64,000 nucleotides of DNA from an uncultured Alphaproteobacteria bacterium (GTDB lineage: Bacteria > Pseudomonadota > Alphaproteobacteria > Micavibrionales > Micavibrionaceae). Below the pieces are notes generated by a model, which did not search any database, was not told the DNA's origin, and saw nothing but the letters and a program-made list of their open reading frames with translations. Every line of letters begins with the position of its first letter. The first letter of the stretch is position 1. Both the position numbers and the translations under genes were made by a program. Of the stretch, positions 44,386 through 49,797 are shown one piece after another. The stretch lies in NCBI GenBank assembly GCA_900696495.1, contig CAADGI010000023.1, positions 62,001 through 126,000 on the forward strand. Reading direction: 5' to 3'.

Positions 44386-45192
44386 ATGATCCCGTTACCT
44401 GTTCTTCTCGCGAGCGCATTGCTGATTCCCGCCGGGGCGACCGGCGATAAGAACGGCTGTTATAAAAACAAGCCGTTCAACACGAAAATCAACATCAATC
44501 TCGAAATCCCGGACGTGACATATAATCACAAGCTCTCGGTCAAAAAGCTGACCAATGATGACAAAGAGCACATGGCCGAGTGGAAGAATGCGAACGTGGA
44601 CCATGTCTGGGCCTCGCAGGAGCTTTTTGTGCTGGGCCAGGCGCGCGGCGCCATGGGCGTGCGGACGCGCTCGCGTTTTATGGGCAAGGCCTATGACCGC
44701 TACGGCCTGTATTTCTGCCCCTATGTAAGGGAATTGAATATCGATGTGTTCTATCACACGCAGATTTTCGTCGGGTCTGAACTCAAGAAGGGCACATGCC
44801 AGTTCGACCTCACGCTGGACCATGAACTGTGGCACCACGAAACCAACGTCAAGGCCGTTCAGGATGTCCTTGCGAAACTGAAAAAGGAATTGCCGCAGAT
44901 TATCGCCTATATGGAGCGGCGCTATGTGCCGCGTTCGGAAATGGAGCGGGGTTTTGAAAGCCTGAGCACCGGCCTGAGCGACGCCATCGAGATTTACGGC
45001 GATTATATGTACAAAGAGGTTGAAAGGCGGAACATGCCCATCGACTCGCCTGAAAATTACGAACGCGAATCGAAACTCTGCGACCCGGCGCAGCCGGATA
45101 AACTGGTGCCGCGCGAAGCCATGCGCCAGTTGCCTGAAAAATTCATGGTGCCCGCGGCTGCGGCGCCTGCGCAGCCGCCGCCAGCCCGGTAA
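44386..45192 (+). CDS. exported zincin-like protein (HELWH motif) between mtaB and ftsY
   Basis: I do not recognise the family. The 268-residue protein has a signal-peptide-like N-terminus (LPVLLASALLIPAGATG). The central segment LTLDHELWHHE (H146-E147-x-x-H150) matches the HExxH zinc protease motif. Downstream helices contain an acidic residue and Tyr-rich segments (SDAIEIYGDYMYKEVE) where a third ligand could lie. A Pro/Ala-rich tail ends the protein. It starts 12 bases after mtaB. Metalloprotease activity is a hypothesis from a short motif. Confidence 0.6.
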   Translation: MIPLPVLLASALLIPAGATGDKNGCYKNKPFNTKININLEIPDVTYNHKLSVKKLTNDDKEHMAEWKNANVDHVWASQELFVLGQARGAMGVRTRSRFMGKAYDRYGLYFCPYVRELNIDVFYHTQIFVGSELKKGTCQFDLTLDHELWHHETNVKAVQDVLAKLKKELPQIIAYMERRYVPRSEMERGFESLSTGLSDAIEIYGDYMYKEVERRNMPIDSPENYERESKLCDPAQPDKLVPREAMRQLPEKFMVPAAAAPAQPPPAR

Positions 45193-45237: not shown

Positions 45238-46416
45238 ATGGTCTTCTGGAAGAAAAAGAGCAAATCGACGGGCGAGGGCAGCAATGAGCGCGCCGACCGC
45301 ATCATTCACCGCGACGATGACGCCGCCATCGAGCCGCCGGTGGAATATGATGCCGACATCGATCCCGACCTGAAGCGCAGCCTTGAGCAATCCGAAATCG
45401 AGGTTCTTGAGGACCTTGATATAACCCCGGTTCCCGTCCACACACCTGCCGACGACCTGCATGAGCAGGAAGACCTGAGCGACCACACGAACGAGGGCGG
45501 CTGGTTTTCGCGTTTAACCAAGGGGCTTTCGAAATCCTCGTCGAAACTGACGACGGGCATTTCCGATCTTCTCCTGAAATCGAAACTGGATGCGGGATCG
45601 CTGGATGACCTTGAAGAAATTTTGATCGAGGCCGATCTCGGCCCGAAAACGGCGGCGAAGGTGATCGGGGAATTTTCGCAGAAACGCTTCGGCGACGATG
45701 CGGGCGACCGCGAAATCCGCACCGCGCTGGCCGAAACCATGGCGGATATACTTAGCCCCGTTGCCAAACCTTTGAAGATTGAAAAACCCGCGAATGGCCC
45801 GTTTGTCATTCTGGTCTGCGGCGTCAACGGCGTCGGCAAAACCACCACCATCGGCAAATACGCCCAGCGCCTGAAAAGCGAAGGATACAAGATCATGGTC
45901 GCGGCGGGCGACACGTTCCGCGCCGCCGCGGTCGAGCAACTCAAGGAATGGGCCTCGCGCACGAATTCCGGTTTCTACGCCAAGGATGTCGGCGCCGATG
46001 CCGCCTCGGTCGCGTTCGAGGCGTATGAAAAAGCGAAGAAAGAAAATATCGACGTCCTGCTGATCGACACGGCGGGGCGCCTCCATAACAAATCGAACCT
46101 GATGGCCGAGCTGGAAAAAATCGTCCGCGTTTTGAAAAAGCAGGATGAAAGCCTGCCTCATGCGACGCTGCTGGTGCTCGACGCCACCACCGGCCAGAAC
46201 GCTTTCGCCCAGTTGGAAACATTCAAAAGCATGGTGAACGTCACCGGCCTGATCGTCACCAAGCTCGACGGCTCGGCAAGGGGCGGGGTGCTGGTGGGCC
46301 TCGCCGACCAGTTCGGCGTGCCGGTCCATGCTATTGGAATCGGCGAGCAGGCAGGGGACATGCAGCCCTTCAGCGCCCGTGATTACGCGCGTTCCCTAAT
46401 GGGCCTGCCTGCCTAG
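45238..46416 (+). CDS. ftsY: signal recognition particle receptor FtsY
   Basis: Membrane-associated GTPase that docks the SRP-ribosome complex at the translocon. The 392 residues comprise an acidic, low-complexity A domain (1-85), the N domain, and the G domain with GVNGVGKTTTIGKYA, GDTFRAAAVEQL, LIDTAGRLHNKSNLM, TKLDGSARGGVLVGL and GIGEQAGDMQPF. Complete. It works with Ffh, encoded nearby on the other strand. Confidence 0.97.
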   Translation: MVFWKKKSKSTGEGSNERADRIIHRDDDAAIEPPVEYDADIDPDLKRSLEQSEIEVLEDLDITPVPVHTPADDLHEQEDLSDHTNEGGWFSRLTKGLSKSSSKLTTGISDLLLKSKLDAGSLDDLEEILIEADLGPKTAAKVIGEFSQKRFGDDAGDREIRTALAETMADILSPVAKPLKIEKPANGPFVILVCGVNGVGKTTTIGKYAQRLKSEGYKIMVAAGDTFRAAAVEQLKEWASRTNSGFYAKDVGADAASVAFEAYEKAKKENIDVLLIDTAGRLHNKSNLMAELEKIVRVLKKQDESLPHATLLVLDATTGQNAFAQLETFKSMVNVTGLIVTKLDGSARGGVLVGLADQFGVPVHAIGIGEQAGDMQPFSARDYARSLMGLPA

Positions 46417-46437
46417 ATTTCCGCATAAATTAAGCCT

Positions 46438-46466
46438 TTGACAGATTAGACATATTCTTGCTAGTT
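46438..46466 (+). promoter_or_regulatory. possible sigma-70 promoter for the RibA-like/TrpF-like unit
   Basis: A perfect TTGACA at 46438-46443 is followed after 17 bases by CTAGTT, a weak -10 element, in the short gap after ftsY. This would give the two-gene unit its own transcript. The weak -10 keeps confidence low. Confidence 0.3.
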
Positions 46467-46496
46467 CTCTTTTCAGAGTAAGGGAAGAGTTCACTG

Positions 46497-47381
46497 ATGC
46501 AAGATCCTGTTGTTTATAAAAGATTGCCGTCAGATTTTAACGCCGCCAGTATTGTCGTTGCTTCAGTGCCTATTCACCTGCCGACTGATATTGGCGACTG
46601 GATTCATCTGTGCGTCGTAGAAAATGACGAAGTTCGCGATCCGCGTAATTACAGCGAAACCCTCAAGGTCGTAAAAGAACACACAATCCTGATTTACAAC
46701 ACGGACGGGTTGGAAGGCGATCTCAGCAAGCTCAGTTTTACCGATCTTGTAAAAATGAATGAGAATGAACCTCTTTTGGTTCGCATTCATTCATGCTGCC
46801 GTTTCGGCGATGCGCTTTACAGCAAGAACTGCGATTGCCGCCGTCAATTGGATGTCGCAAAGCTTGTAATCAAAGAGCAGGGCGCAGGGATTATTTTTTA
46901 TCTCGACCAGGAAGGCCGCAATGCCGGCCTGACGATGAAAACGGCGGCCAATCACATGGAGCAAGTGCACAGAATTGACACGTCGCAGACCTATCAGCGT
47001 TTCGGAATGGGCGGTAACGATTTTCGTGAATATGGTGTGGTAACTGATGCCTTGAAATTGCTGGGCATTACGAAAGTAAGATTAATAACCAACAATCCCG
47101 CCAAAATTCAGGCGGTGCGGGACGCCGGTGTCGAAGTCATTCGGGAACAGAACCAGACGGCTCCCACGCCTGATTCTCTGGCGTATCTGAGAGCAAAGCG
47201 CGAACTCATGGGGCACCTGCTGGAAGAGGAGATGGTGGATGGCAGCGATCATGCGGCCATGATTACCAAGTTACGCATGCTGTTGCCCAGGCTTACACTT
47301 GAGCATGTGCAGGAACTGGAAAAAATCGTGAATGGCACGAAGGTTTCTGCCGAGACATTACTGGCAAGGGAGCCATCATGA
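46497..47381 (+). CDS. GTP cyclohydrolase II homologue
   Basis: The 294-residue protein is clearly related to RibA, which opens the GTP imidazole ring to give a phosphoribosylaminopyrimidine, formate and pyrophosphate. VRIHSCCRFGDALYSKNCDC carries the three zinc cysteines (C101, C112, C114), GIIFYLDQEGRN the GTP site Tyr135, and FREYGV an Arg (R177) aligned with the catalytic Arg128 of E. coli RibA. LITNNPAK ends the conserved core. An extended N-terminus (about 95 residues before the zinc site against about 50) and a C-terminal 70-residue helical tail are unusual. No ribB, ribD or ribE is adjacent. Instead it overlaps a TrpF-like gene by four bases, and base composition is more AT-rich than in neighbours. 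Not a standard riboflavin gene. Confidence 0.85.
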   Translation: MQDPVVYKRLPSDFNAASIVVASVPIHLPTDIGDWIHLCVVENDEVRDPRNYSETLKVVKEHTILIYNTDGLEGDLSKLSFTDLVKMNENEPLLVRIHSCCRFGDALYSKNCDCRRQLDVAKLVIKEQGAGIIFYLDQEGRNAGLTMKTAANHMEQVHRIDTSQTYQRFGMGGNDFREYGVVTDALKLLGITKVRLITNNPAKIQAVRDAGVEVIREQNQTAPTPDSLAYLRAKRELMGHLLEEEMVDGSDHAAMITKLRMLLPRLTLEHVQELEKIVNGTKVSAETLLAREPS

Positions 47382-48220
47382 AACCTTATATTGGCATCGC
47401 CGGCGTCACGACACGCGATCAGGGCGAAACCCTGACAGGTCAGTTTTATACGAACGCAGTGGGTGTCGGTGGAAGAGGGCACTATGGATTGATTGGCTAT
47501 TGCCTGACGTCGGAAATGATCAACGCAGATGGCAAAATAACCGATCCGCGATACATAGGATTGGATGATTTACGCATTTTAAATCCCAAACAACCATTCG
47601 GCCGTAATGCCATTCATTATTCACCGAATCCTGAAAACCCGGACAAGTTTTTTATACCCGACCTTGTTAATATTTTCATGGGCAAGGGCAGCGAGATTTA
47701 TAAAAGCACGGCTGGCAAGGTCTTGCAGCTCAACCGCGCTTTCAATGTCAGCGCGGATTTACTGGAGTCTGTAAAACACAAAAAAGACGGGATGTTTCCG
47801 GATCTGGAAATCATTTTCCAGGCAGGCCCCGGTGATATAACAGAAATGACTCCTGATGAACTGATCGCCCGTCTTCGTCCCTACGAAAAATATATAAGCG
47901 GAATTTTGCTGGATTCTTCCTGCGGTACGGGCCGGAAAATGGATGTGCGGGCCTTCGCGCCTCATATCGCGGCACTTGAAAAAGCTTTCCCGGATAGAAT
48001 GCTTGTCTTCGCCGGCGGGCTGAATCCTGAAAACGTCGCTGCCCAGATTGCGGCGTTAAGCCGGGTGACAACGCGGCCTTTTTCAATAGATGTTGAAATC
48101 GGCGTACGAAATGAACGGGACGAGCTTGATCTTGCTAAAACCGAAACCTTCATTCAGCGCGCGACCCAGCAGATTTATACAAATATTCGGTCTCTCCGCC
48201 TTGAGAACACCCTGGCCTAG
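47378..48220 (+). CDS. phosphoribosylanthranilate-isomerase-like TIM-barrel protein
   Basis: A 280-residue barrel with TrpF landmarks in order. IGIAGVTT stands at the N-terminus (TrpF: KICGIT), and KVLQLNR (TrpF: QLHG) at 114-120. ILLDSSCGTGRKMDV follows at 176-190 (TrpF: LLD...GGSG..FDW), then VFAGGLNPENV at 210-220 (TrpF: AGGLNPENV) and IDVEIGVR near the end. The catalytic Asp position is kept (D179), but the general-base Cys is Ala8. It is about 80 residues longer than TrpF. It is translationally coupled (ATGA) to the GTP cyclohydrolase II homologue, whose product is an N-phosphoribosyl amine. An Amadori rearrangement of that product is therefore an attractive but unproven role. Confidence 0.75.
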   Translation: MKPYIGIAGVTTRDQGETLTGQFYTNAVGVGGRGHYGLIGYCLTSEMINADGKITDPRYIGLDDLRILNPKQPFGRNAIHYSPNPENPDKFFIPDLVNIFMGKGSEIYKSTAGKVLQLNRAFNVSADLLESVKHKKDGMFPDLEIIFQAGPGDITEMTPDELIARLRPYEKYISGILLDSSCGTGRKMDVRAFAPHIAALEKAFPDRMLVFAGGLNPENVAAQIAALSRVTTRPFSIDVEIGVRNERDELDLAKTETFIQRATQQIYTNIRSLRLENTLA

Positions 48221-48279
48221 CCCTGGCGGTCCTTCTTTACCCCTTGAAATTATTTCCAGATCGGCGAAAATAAACGGGC

Positions 48280-49797
48280 ATGCCAAAGGCGCCCCGCACA
48301 TTCAAGGCCAAGACCTATAAAGACCCGCAACTGGCGCTCGACGCCGTGACGGAGATTTACGAAAGCAACCTGGCTTATCTTCAGGCGCAGTTCAAAAGCT
48401 TCGCCGAGGACAAGGTCACCGACGAACATGATCGCATCAGCGTTTGCTATCCCTATATCAAGATTGTCACCAAACAGGCCCGCCGGGCGGATACGCGCCT
48501 AGCTTACGGTTTCGCGCCGCGCCCGGGCGCCTACAGCACGACGCTGACCCGGCCCGACATCTTCCAGAATTATTATCTCGAGCAGATGCGCCTCCTGATC
48601 GCCAACCATAATGTCCCGATCGAGGTCGGCGTCAGCACCACGCCCATTCCCGTCCACTTCGCGCTCGGCTCGAATTTCCACATCGAAAACGGCCTGACGG
48701 CGGAGCAGCTTCACACCCTGCCGGAAATCTTCGACATTCCCAATCTCGATGTCATGGATGATGAAATCGCCAACGGCACTTATATTCCGCCGGCGGGCGA
48801 GCCGTCGCCGCTGGCGCTGTTCACCGCGCCGCGGGTGGATTTAAGCTTGCAAAGGCTCAAGCATTATTGCGGCACCTCGGCCGAACACTTCCAGAATTAC
48901 ATCATCTTCACGAACTACCAGTTCTATATCGATGAATTCGTGCGGCTGTGCCATGGCCTGATGGCGCCGACCGACGACCAGGCGATGCGCAAGCAGCGCT
49001 CGGTGTTCAGCGCCTTCGTCGAACCGGGCGACCGCATCACGCCGAATAAAAACTCCGAAAATTATAGCGCCGTCACCACGCAGGCCGCCCCGCAGGCCAT
49101 CCGGCTGCCGCAGATGCCGGCTTATCACCTGAAAATGCCGGGCGGGCAGGGGATCACGCTGGTGAATATCGGCGTCGGCCCGTCGAACGCCAAAACCATC
49201 ACCGATCATTGCGCTGTTTTAAGACCGCACGCGTGGCTGATGCTCGGCCACTGCGCGGGATTAAGAAACTCACAGCGCATGGGCGATTACGTTCTCGCGC
49301 ACGGCTATCTGCGCGAAGACAATATTCTCGACGAAGAAGTGCCGCCGAACATTCCCATTCCCGCTCTCGCCGAAATCCAGCAGGCGCTGGAGCAGGCGGT
49401 CTCGCAGGTTACGGGACACAAAGGCTTCGACCTGAAAAAATTCATGCGCACGGGAACGGTGGCAACCACCGCCGACCGGAACTGGGAATTACGTTCATCG
49501 CTGACCCAGAGCCGCCGCCTGAGCCAGAGCCGCGCCATCGCCATGGATATGGAGGCCGGCACTATCGCGGCCAATGGATTCAGGTTCCGGGTTCCCTATG
49601 GCACGTTGCTCTGCGTTTCCGACAAACCGCTGCACGGCCAGCTCAAACTTCCCGGCATGGCCGATGCGTTCTACCGCGAGCGCGTGAAACAGCATTTGCA
49701 GATCGGTTTGCTGACCATGACGCTGCTGCGCGACCAGGAACCCGAAAAACTCCATAGCCGCAAACTGCGCAGCTTCAACGAAGTGGCGTTCCAGTAA
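48280..49797 (+). CDS. amn: AMP nucleosidase
   Basis: Hydrolyses AMP to adenine and ribose 5-phosphate, tuning adenylate pools. The 505 residues show the Amn N-terminal domain (FKAKTYKDPQLALDAVTEIY, ARRADTRLAYGFAPRPGAYS) and the nucleoside phosphorylase-like domain. The latter includes ITLVNIGVGPSNAKTITDH, LMLGHCAGLRNSQRMGDYVL, AMDMEAGTIAANGFRF and LLCVSDKPLHGQLKLPG. Complete. It is 60 bases after the TrpF-like gene but with base composition like the rest of the chromosome, so a functional link to that pair is not assumed. Confidence 0.94.
   Translation: MPKAPRTFKAKTYKDPQLALDAVTEIYESNLAYLQAQFKSFAEDKVTDEHDRISVCYPYIKIVTKQARRADTRLAYGFAPRPGAYSTTLTRPDIFQNYYLEQMRLLIANHNVPIEVGVSTTPIPVHFALGSNFHIENGLTAEQLHTLPEIFDIPNLDVMDDEIANGTYIPPAGEPSPLALFTAPRVDLSLQRLKHYCGTSAEHFQNYIIFTNYQFYIDEFVRLCHGLMAPTDDQAMRKQRSVFSAFVEPGDRITPNKNSENYSAVTTQAAPQAIRLPQMPAYHLKMPGGQGITLVNIGVGPSNAKTITDHCAVLRPHAWLMLGHCAGLRNSQRMGDYVLAHGYLREDNILDEEVPPNIPIPALAEIQQALEQAVSQVTGHKGFDLKKFMRTGTVATTADRNWELRSSLTQSRRLSQSRAIAMDMEAGTIAANGFRFRVPYGTLLCVSDKPLHGQLKLPGMADAFYRERVKQHLQIGLLTMTLLRDQEPEKLHSRKLRSFNEVAFQ

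Follow-up and report, generated by a model that had tools for sequence, protein, structure and literature searches.

A GTP cyclohydrolase II homolog and an overlapping TrpF-like barrel gene as a candidate two-enzyme module for nucleotide ring opening

The RIB-BAR locus

The window analyzed here is a stretch of 64,000 nucleotides, and coordinates are window positions unless a locus label precedes them. Between ftsY and amn, it carries two genes that we label RIB, for a GTP cyclohydrolase II homolog, and BAR, for a TrpF-like barrel (Table 1). RIB starts 80 bases past ftsY, BAR ends 59 bases ahead of amn, and the ATGA shared by the RIB stop and the BAR start may couple the translation of the two genes. 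An initial annotation had described the pair as AT-rich genes that overlap by four bases between ftsY and amn. The overlap, place, and strand are as described, but the AT-richness holds only relative to the neighbors: GC content is 0.49 for RIB-BAR, and GC3 is 0.55 for RIB and 0.51 for BAR, versus 0.66 to 0.77 in eight neighboring genes.

Table 1. Features of the RIB-BAR locus (window positions)
Feature	Position	Strand	Basis
RIB, GTP cyclohydrolase II homolog, RibA-type, 294 aa	46497..47381	+	PF00925, residues, and tree
BAR, TrpF-like (beta/alpha) barrel, 280 aa	47378..48220	+	PF00697, residues, and model
ATGA overlap, RIB stop/BAR start	47378..47381	+	
ftsY, left flank	45238..46416	+	Named by comparison and the initial annotation, not by Pfam
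amn (AMP nucleosidase), right flank	48280..49797	+	

Both proteins match Pfam families above the cutoffs, and these matches are therefore not attributed to chance. RIB matches PF00925 at 113 bits (cutoff, 23.3). The match of BAR to PF00697, at 29.5 bits (cutoff, 22.7), covers residues 171 to 260 only. An FMN riboswitch or other structured RNA at the locus was rejected, since a scan of positions 46200 to 48400 against Rfam (E ≤ 1) gave no match. A promoter and terminator scan of the locus gave results at chance level.

Distribution, insertion, and constraint

Of the 104 family genomes searched with BAR, 3 contain the RIB-BAR pair, and these belong to one genus; a further weak match, in G076, was left outside this count. 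Both genes are kept in two further genomes of the genus at 63 to 72% identity (loci L001 and L002), and three genomes are counted in all, as the identities of L001 and L002 equal those of G097 and G098, which are probably the same genomes. A profile of the genus barrels found the window's own genome only, both among 385 class genomes (E ≤ 1e-8) and among 398 phylum genomes (E ≤ 1e-7). Likewise, a direct tblastn search with BAR gave no relatives in phages and plasmids, and viral contigs searched with genus-only alignments gave no match.

Synteny in relatives bears on how the pair came to be here. All of the 11 genomes examined from 11 other genera contain amn, and ftsY lies directly before it in eight; in two, ftsY was not seen within 1.5 kb of amn, and in G024, approximately 1.3 kb with two adenosine-deaminase-like open reading frames (ORFs) separates the two genes. 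Because ftsY and amn are adjacent in 8 of these 11 relatives, RIB-BAR looks like an insertion at the ftsY/amn junction. Comparison of the window with L001 gave a dN/dS of approximately 0.17 for RIB and for BAR, a rough value because dS (1.1 to 1.5) is near saturation, and a similarly rough 0.03 for ftsY and amn. By these estimates, RIB and BAR are evolving fast but under constraint.

Two observations stand beside these results. The two ORFs at the G024 junction (L136:3047-4265) together resemble a split adenosine deaminase. Also, a 268-aa protein at window positions 44386 to 45192 contains an HExxH-like motif (HELWH) and has no Pfam match over the cutoff; it is present in L002, and the same place in L001 has no visible copy.

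RIB is a RibA-type protein that has lost Tyr105

RIB was aligned with E. coli RibA, five family RibAs, four URC1s, a URC1-barrel fusion, and the RibBA of its own genome. In E. coli numbering, RIB keeps R49, S52, C54, D58, C65, C67, Q70, K101, D126, R128, N150, N151, and K154; in its own numbering, the zinc cysteines are residues 101, 112, and 114, and the kept Asp and Arg are Asp175 and Arg177. The initial annotation was right, according to this alignment, in assigning RIB the RibA zinc cysteines (C54, C65, and C67) and the catalytic Arg (R128); the three cysteines are kept in all three genomes with the pair.

What had been overlooked is Tyr105, which is Asn152 in RIB in all three genomes. E. 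coli RibA and all five family RibAs aligned have Tyr at this position. URC1s show the opposite pattern, with Tyr105 kept and S52, Q70, and N150/N151 changed. We take Tyr105 of RibA to be the residue that governs deformylation, and the roles of the other RibA residues are presumed in the same way. A Streptomyces homolog with another residue at this Tyr, the SCO6655 of Spoonamore and Bandarian (2006), reportedly stops at the formylated product. Given this homolog and the loss of Tyr105, we predict that the RIB product probably keeps its formyl group.

In other respects, RIB both resembles RibA and departs from it. It shares with E. coli RibA (PDB 2bz0) the PF00925 family, the zinc cysteines, D126, R128, Q70, N150, N151, and K154. 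However, it has Cys/Leu for E53 in addition to Asn for Y105, approximately 31 extra residues in the aligned part, a C-terminal extension, and a location outside the rib operon, and its scores miss the NCBIfam cutoffs of TIGR00505 (134.2 versus 205.85) and NF001591 (140.3 versus 148). In a tree with some long branches, the five URC1-type rows split from RIB and RibA with a support of 100/100, and RIB by this measure falls with RibA, not with URC1.

BAR shares an invariant residue set with phage barrels

Kinship between BAR and a group of barrels from phages is evidenced mainly by residues. In an alignment of 71 rows (3 genus barrels and 68 viral barrels), Q117, N119, Q148, D179, G213, G214, D238, E240, and R244 of BAR are all nine of the residues invariant in the 68 viral barrels, and both congener barrels have nine of nine as well. 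The viral loci had been selected with two short patterns that include several of these positions; BAR matches neither pattern, and E240, D238, and R244 occur in all 47 viral rows that were selected solely by the pattern lacking them. The 18 plasmid and chromosomal members all have N119 and D179, whereas E240 is present in 17 of them and Q148 and R244 in 13 each. This conserved set, which the initial annotation overlooked, differs from that of TrpF: across eight TrpF rows, which include one fragment and one divergent paralog, N119, Q148, and E240 differ in all eight and R244 differs in seven.

Scores and phylogeny are less telling. BAR scored 58 bits with a profile of the phage-type group versus 44 bits with TrpF, and hhalign gave E values of 6e-19 and 2e-17, respectively. 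An unrooted tree split its rows into three separate sets: the group (18), TrpF (8), and the genus barrels (3). The kinship of BAR with the phage group depends on common residues more than on scores or the tree.

The likeness to TrpF (PF00697) is nonetheless considerable. The TrpF Asp and phosphate-binding motifs named in the initial annotation are present as D179, AGGLNP, and D238, with Asp179 as the putative acid in a predicted barrel. A first model of BAR, built from 3 sequences, was poor (pLDDT, 47), but a second (AF2, 71 sequences) reached a pLDDT of 69, with residues 1 to 48 under 50, and has a barrel fold. VIA-align ranked TrpF 5lhf first for this second model (Z, 12.5; rmsd, 3.0; 174 aligned), level with the ribulose-phosphate 3-epimerase 5umf (Z, 12.3; rmsd, 2.9; 181 aligned); in Foldseek, triosephosphate isomerases were on top, with TM-scores of 0.4 to 0.5.

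BAR differs from TrpF in the residues discussed above, in its best score against the NCBIfam TrpF equivalog (37.5 versus a cutoff of 215), and in the base Cys, which the initial annotation had read as Ala. Profile alignment agrees, placing Ala8 there, in the part of the AF2 model (residues 1 to 48) that is unsure. Cys42 would occupy the base position if the structural alignments to some TrpFs, which start at residue 36, are ungapped there, but we prefer Ala8 because the profile alignment also lines up the RYI motif after strand 2, as read by eye. Since the base Cys appears to be missing and other residues are conserved, Amadori chemistry is proposed for BAR as one option only. Apart from BAR, the genome has a canonical trpF at another locus. 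On sequence grounds, then, RIB does not appear to be an ordinary RibA, nor BAR a TrpF, and we infer their functions below from context.

As a separate observation, the genome G047 encodes a TrpF-like paralog of 244 aa (L012:1474-2208, minus strand) in which Ala occupies the position of the base Cys; its neighbors are dapA-, smpB-, and recA-like ORFs, named by eye.

A wider barrel group in phages, plasmids, and chromosomes

The wider barrel group was reached only via a URC1-linked barrel. It was first met at L083, in a family genome, within a cluster that also contains a URC1-type cyclohydrolase and a uracil phosphoribosyltransferase (UPRT). Members occur in 15 plasmid records (where an annotation exists, it reads hypothetical), 4 phage records, 6 of 385 class genomes (the window's own included), 4 of 299 phylum genomes (two of those six included), and 127 of 147 candidate viral-contig stretches, of which 80 were kept. 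Existing profiles capture the group in part: Pfam recognizes 34 of the 71 barrel rows, as PRAI, and PHROG gave no match for five of six viral barrels tested and a weak match of unknown function for the sixth.

The neighbors of these barrels are varied. Among the 25 of 87 matched families that were listed, the commonest viral-neighbor family is a Cas4/RecE-like exonuclease, with 13 of the 107 immediate neighbors scanned. MazG-like genes lie near the barrel in two phage records that each exceed 600 kb, and one plasmid copy has a weak MazG-like C terminus. On chromosomes, the G631 barrel has a xanthine/uracil permease, a PfkB kinase, and a nucleoside hydrolase as neighbors, and the G369 barrel lies near a PfkB kinase. 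A role in anti-phage defense was considered and rejected, as PADLOC gave no match for five proteins.

Cyclohydrolases and barrels are linked in three arrangements

A cyclohydrolase and a barrel are linked in the RIB-BAR overlap, in URC1/UPRT clusters, and in one URC1-barrel fusion. Of 10 family URC1 loci, 9 have UPRT in the same cluster and 3 have a barrel (L083, L094, and L101). The gene order is URC1-BAR-UPRT in L094 and L101 and URC1-kinase-like-UPRT-BAR in L083; a possible fourth case, broken by contig ends, is G016, where a barrel and UPRT lie together on another short contig. The fusion is a single 686-aa protein of G409 comprising GTP_CH_N, a cyclohydrolase domain, and the barrel. Its cyclohydrolase domain keeps the zinc cysteines, scores 21.1 bits (2.2 under the Pfam cutoff of 23.3), and aligns with URC1 at 32 to 33% over 382 to 384 aa. 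Beside it (L125:5118-10396) lie genes for LOG-like and cytidine-deaminase-like proteins, both just under cutoffs, and this cluster is possibly a nucleotide-breakdown operon.

Co-occurrence across genomes points the same way. Five family genomes have barrels that were found without looking at URC1 loci, and URC1 is present in four of them versus 10 of 104 overall (P = 2e-4, a value that ignores kinship, three of the five genomes being of one genus). Because RIB groups with RibA and the other partners group with URC1, the sequences suggest that the link between cyclohydrolase and barrel arose at least twice.

Most barrels, however, have no such partner. No cyclohydrolase was found beside the barrel at any of 80 viral loci (up to 4 kb on each side), at any of 15 plasmid and phage loci (stretches from 12 of the 15 plasmid and 3 of the 4 phage records), or at any of 9 other chromosomal loci in the stretches examined, including those of the family genomes G039, G040, and G041. 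By the initial annotation's own measure, barrels without a linked cyclohydrolase in other genomes speak against its scheme, and the many unlinked barrels found here do so in part, beside the recurrence of the link in three arrangements.

A close parallel is URC1/URC6 uracil catabolism, in which the URC1 cyclohydrolase homolog is linked to a barrel of the BAR kind at the 3 of 10 loci. RIB differs in having neither the GTP_CH_N domain nor the URC1 substrate-site residues, and UPRT over the cutoff was not found in G000, G097, or G098. The intermediate recorded for the URC pathway in the excerpt of PMC7530994 is ribosylurea, which, like the expected product of RIB, is an N-ribosyl compound.

Riboflavin genes and the fate of a formylated product

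The initial annotation noted that no riboflavin genes are nearby, and indeed the rib operon is on a different contig, but it contains a degenerate RibBA. The operon encodes RibD and RibBA, as recognized by Pfam, and nrdR, ribE, ribH, and nusB, as recognized by eye. The genome has two PF00925 matches, RIB and this RibBA, whose cyclohydrolase domain is without the zinc cysteines and is of the RibBX type described in the excerpt of PMC10012899. Since the RibBA is degenerate, RIB may itself be a riboflavin enzyme. Such a role is possible but not required, because the RibBA loci of the other family genomes (L063 to L082) are missing the zinc cysteines in 20 of 20 cases and those genomes have no second PF00925 match in 20 of 20.

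A formylated product of RIB would have a counterpart in a known route. As given in the excerpt of PMC9478397, the BrbF formamidase of Sinorhizobium deformylates a formylated intermediate, and the bacterial enzyme that forms this intermediate is yet to be discovered. The formylated intermediate of the route comprising archaeal GCHIII/ArfB and bacterial BrbF is the predicted product of RIB; the difference is that RIB is RibA-like, not GCHIII-like, and that the genus has no BrbF-family match. A creatininase-family protein could deformylate the product, and a match to this family was present in 10 of 104 family genomes and not found in the genus; a creatininase-type formamidase (BrbF) as partner for RIB was accordingly rejected.

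Proposed mechanism and rival explanations

We propose, with moderate confidence, that RIB and BAR form a module of two enzymes for the opening of nucleotide rings, with BAR processing an N-phosphoribosyl product. RIB, a putative zinc enzyme with a RibA-like GTP site, would take GTP, or a purine nucleotide close to it, and open its imidazole ring. With Tyr105 lost, the product would be 2-amino-5-formylamino-6-(5-phosphoribosylamino)pyrimidinone, the formyl group probably being kept. BAR would then act on the N-(5-phosphoribosyl) part, by Amadori-type isomerization or by cleavage of the N-glycosidic bond, with Asp179 and Glu240 in place of the Cys/Asp pair of TrpF. This order, RIB and then BAR, is proposed because of the nucleobase and nucleotide context and because the cyclohydrolase product is expected to carry an N-linked phosphoribosyl group. 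The gene coupling, the residue conservation, and the recurrence with a different cyclohydrolase branch are direct observations. Substrate, formyl retention, BAR reaction, and end product are as we infer them, and the sequence fits isomerization and cleavage alike. The initial annotation had put forward ring opening followed by sugar rearrangement, a scheme favored by linkage in three arrangements and by the tied top rank of TrpF in VIA-align but weakened at its second step by the missing base Cys.

The main rival, which we consider rather unlikely, is that RIB serves as the riboflavin GTP cyclohydrolase II of the genus from a site outside the rib operon, RibBA having lost its RibA activity (RibBX), with BAR as a passenger or accessory. 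The two PF00925 matches, one of them without zinc cysteines, are what this explanation would predict, and it has a precedent in Aeromonas salmonicida, which, according to the excerpt of PMC10012899, has RibBX and obtains its sole GTP cyclohydrolase II from a separate ribA, so that loss of this ribA makes it a riboflavin auxotroph. Nevertheless, it must accommodate Asn in place of Tyr105, the missed TIGR00505 and NF001591 cutoffs, a missing second RibA that is not peculiar to the genus, and the lack of an Rfam match, and so of an FMN riboswitch, in 46200 to 48400, and it leaves the overlapping, conserved barrel unaccounted for. A less probable explanation is that the pair is cargo derived from a mobile element, with a barrel function unrelated to the cyclohydrolase and an accidental linkage. 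An AT-rich insert at a junction whose flanks are adjacent in 8 of 11 relatives would fit, as would the frequent occurrence of the barrel group in phages and plasmids where no cyclohydrolase is close by; yet the linkage recurs in clusters and in a fusion with a different cyclohydrolase branch, and both genes are retained and constrained.

We regard as quite improbable the explanation in which ring opening by RIB, Amadori rearrangement by BAR, and spontaneous closure give dihydroneopterin phosphate as a second entry into pterins and folate. Chemically, this would work if BAR were an isomerase, and Adams et al. (2014) are said to have described a chlamydial folate bypass by RibA and TrpF, the same two enzyme families. 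However, that bypass reportedly uses a RibA and a TrpF of the ordinary kind, and folE is absent from the genome, whereas the pair here is modified and folE (PF01227) is present in all three genomes with the pair, and the pair was found in none of the 41 family genomes that lack such a match. The presence of folE led us to reject the filling of a folate gap as the main reading, and a pterin route to that end is likewise unsupported. Moreover, the loss of Tyr105, in the role we presume for it, would hinder the required deformylation.

If the ring-opening module is real, RIB may supply the formylated-product step for which the excerpt of PMC9478397 names no bacterial enzyme. In bacteria with degenerate RibBA, RIB may also bear on how riboflavin synthesis starts. 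More tentatively, and as a possibility that we would not yet count on, an undescribed, phage-frequent TrpF-fold group may process N-phosphoribosyl ring-opening products and may have been recruited in bacteria at least twice as a cyclohydrolase partner, with RibA-type and with URC1-type enzymes, with this genus making the formylated GTP product. Searches of the openly licensed literature yielded no paper on the pair or the barrel group, which is not proof of absence, and the excerpts of PMC5445326 and PMC5811630 do not mention the pair. The proposed module would tie an uncharacterized phage and plasmid barrel group to nucleotide ring opening, with its conserved residues named and a two-step reaction that can be tested.

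Two further observations concern the barrel group itself. TrpF-like barrels are frequent in phages (L153 to L232 and L118 to L120), and their Q, N, Q, D, D, E, and R residues are under strict conservation. Finally, G171, an alphaproteobacterial genome of 0.9 Mb, carries three barrel copies within approximately 3 kb (L129:7598-10681).
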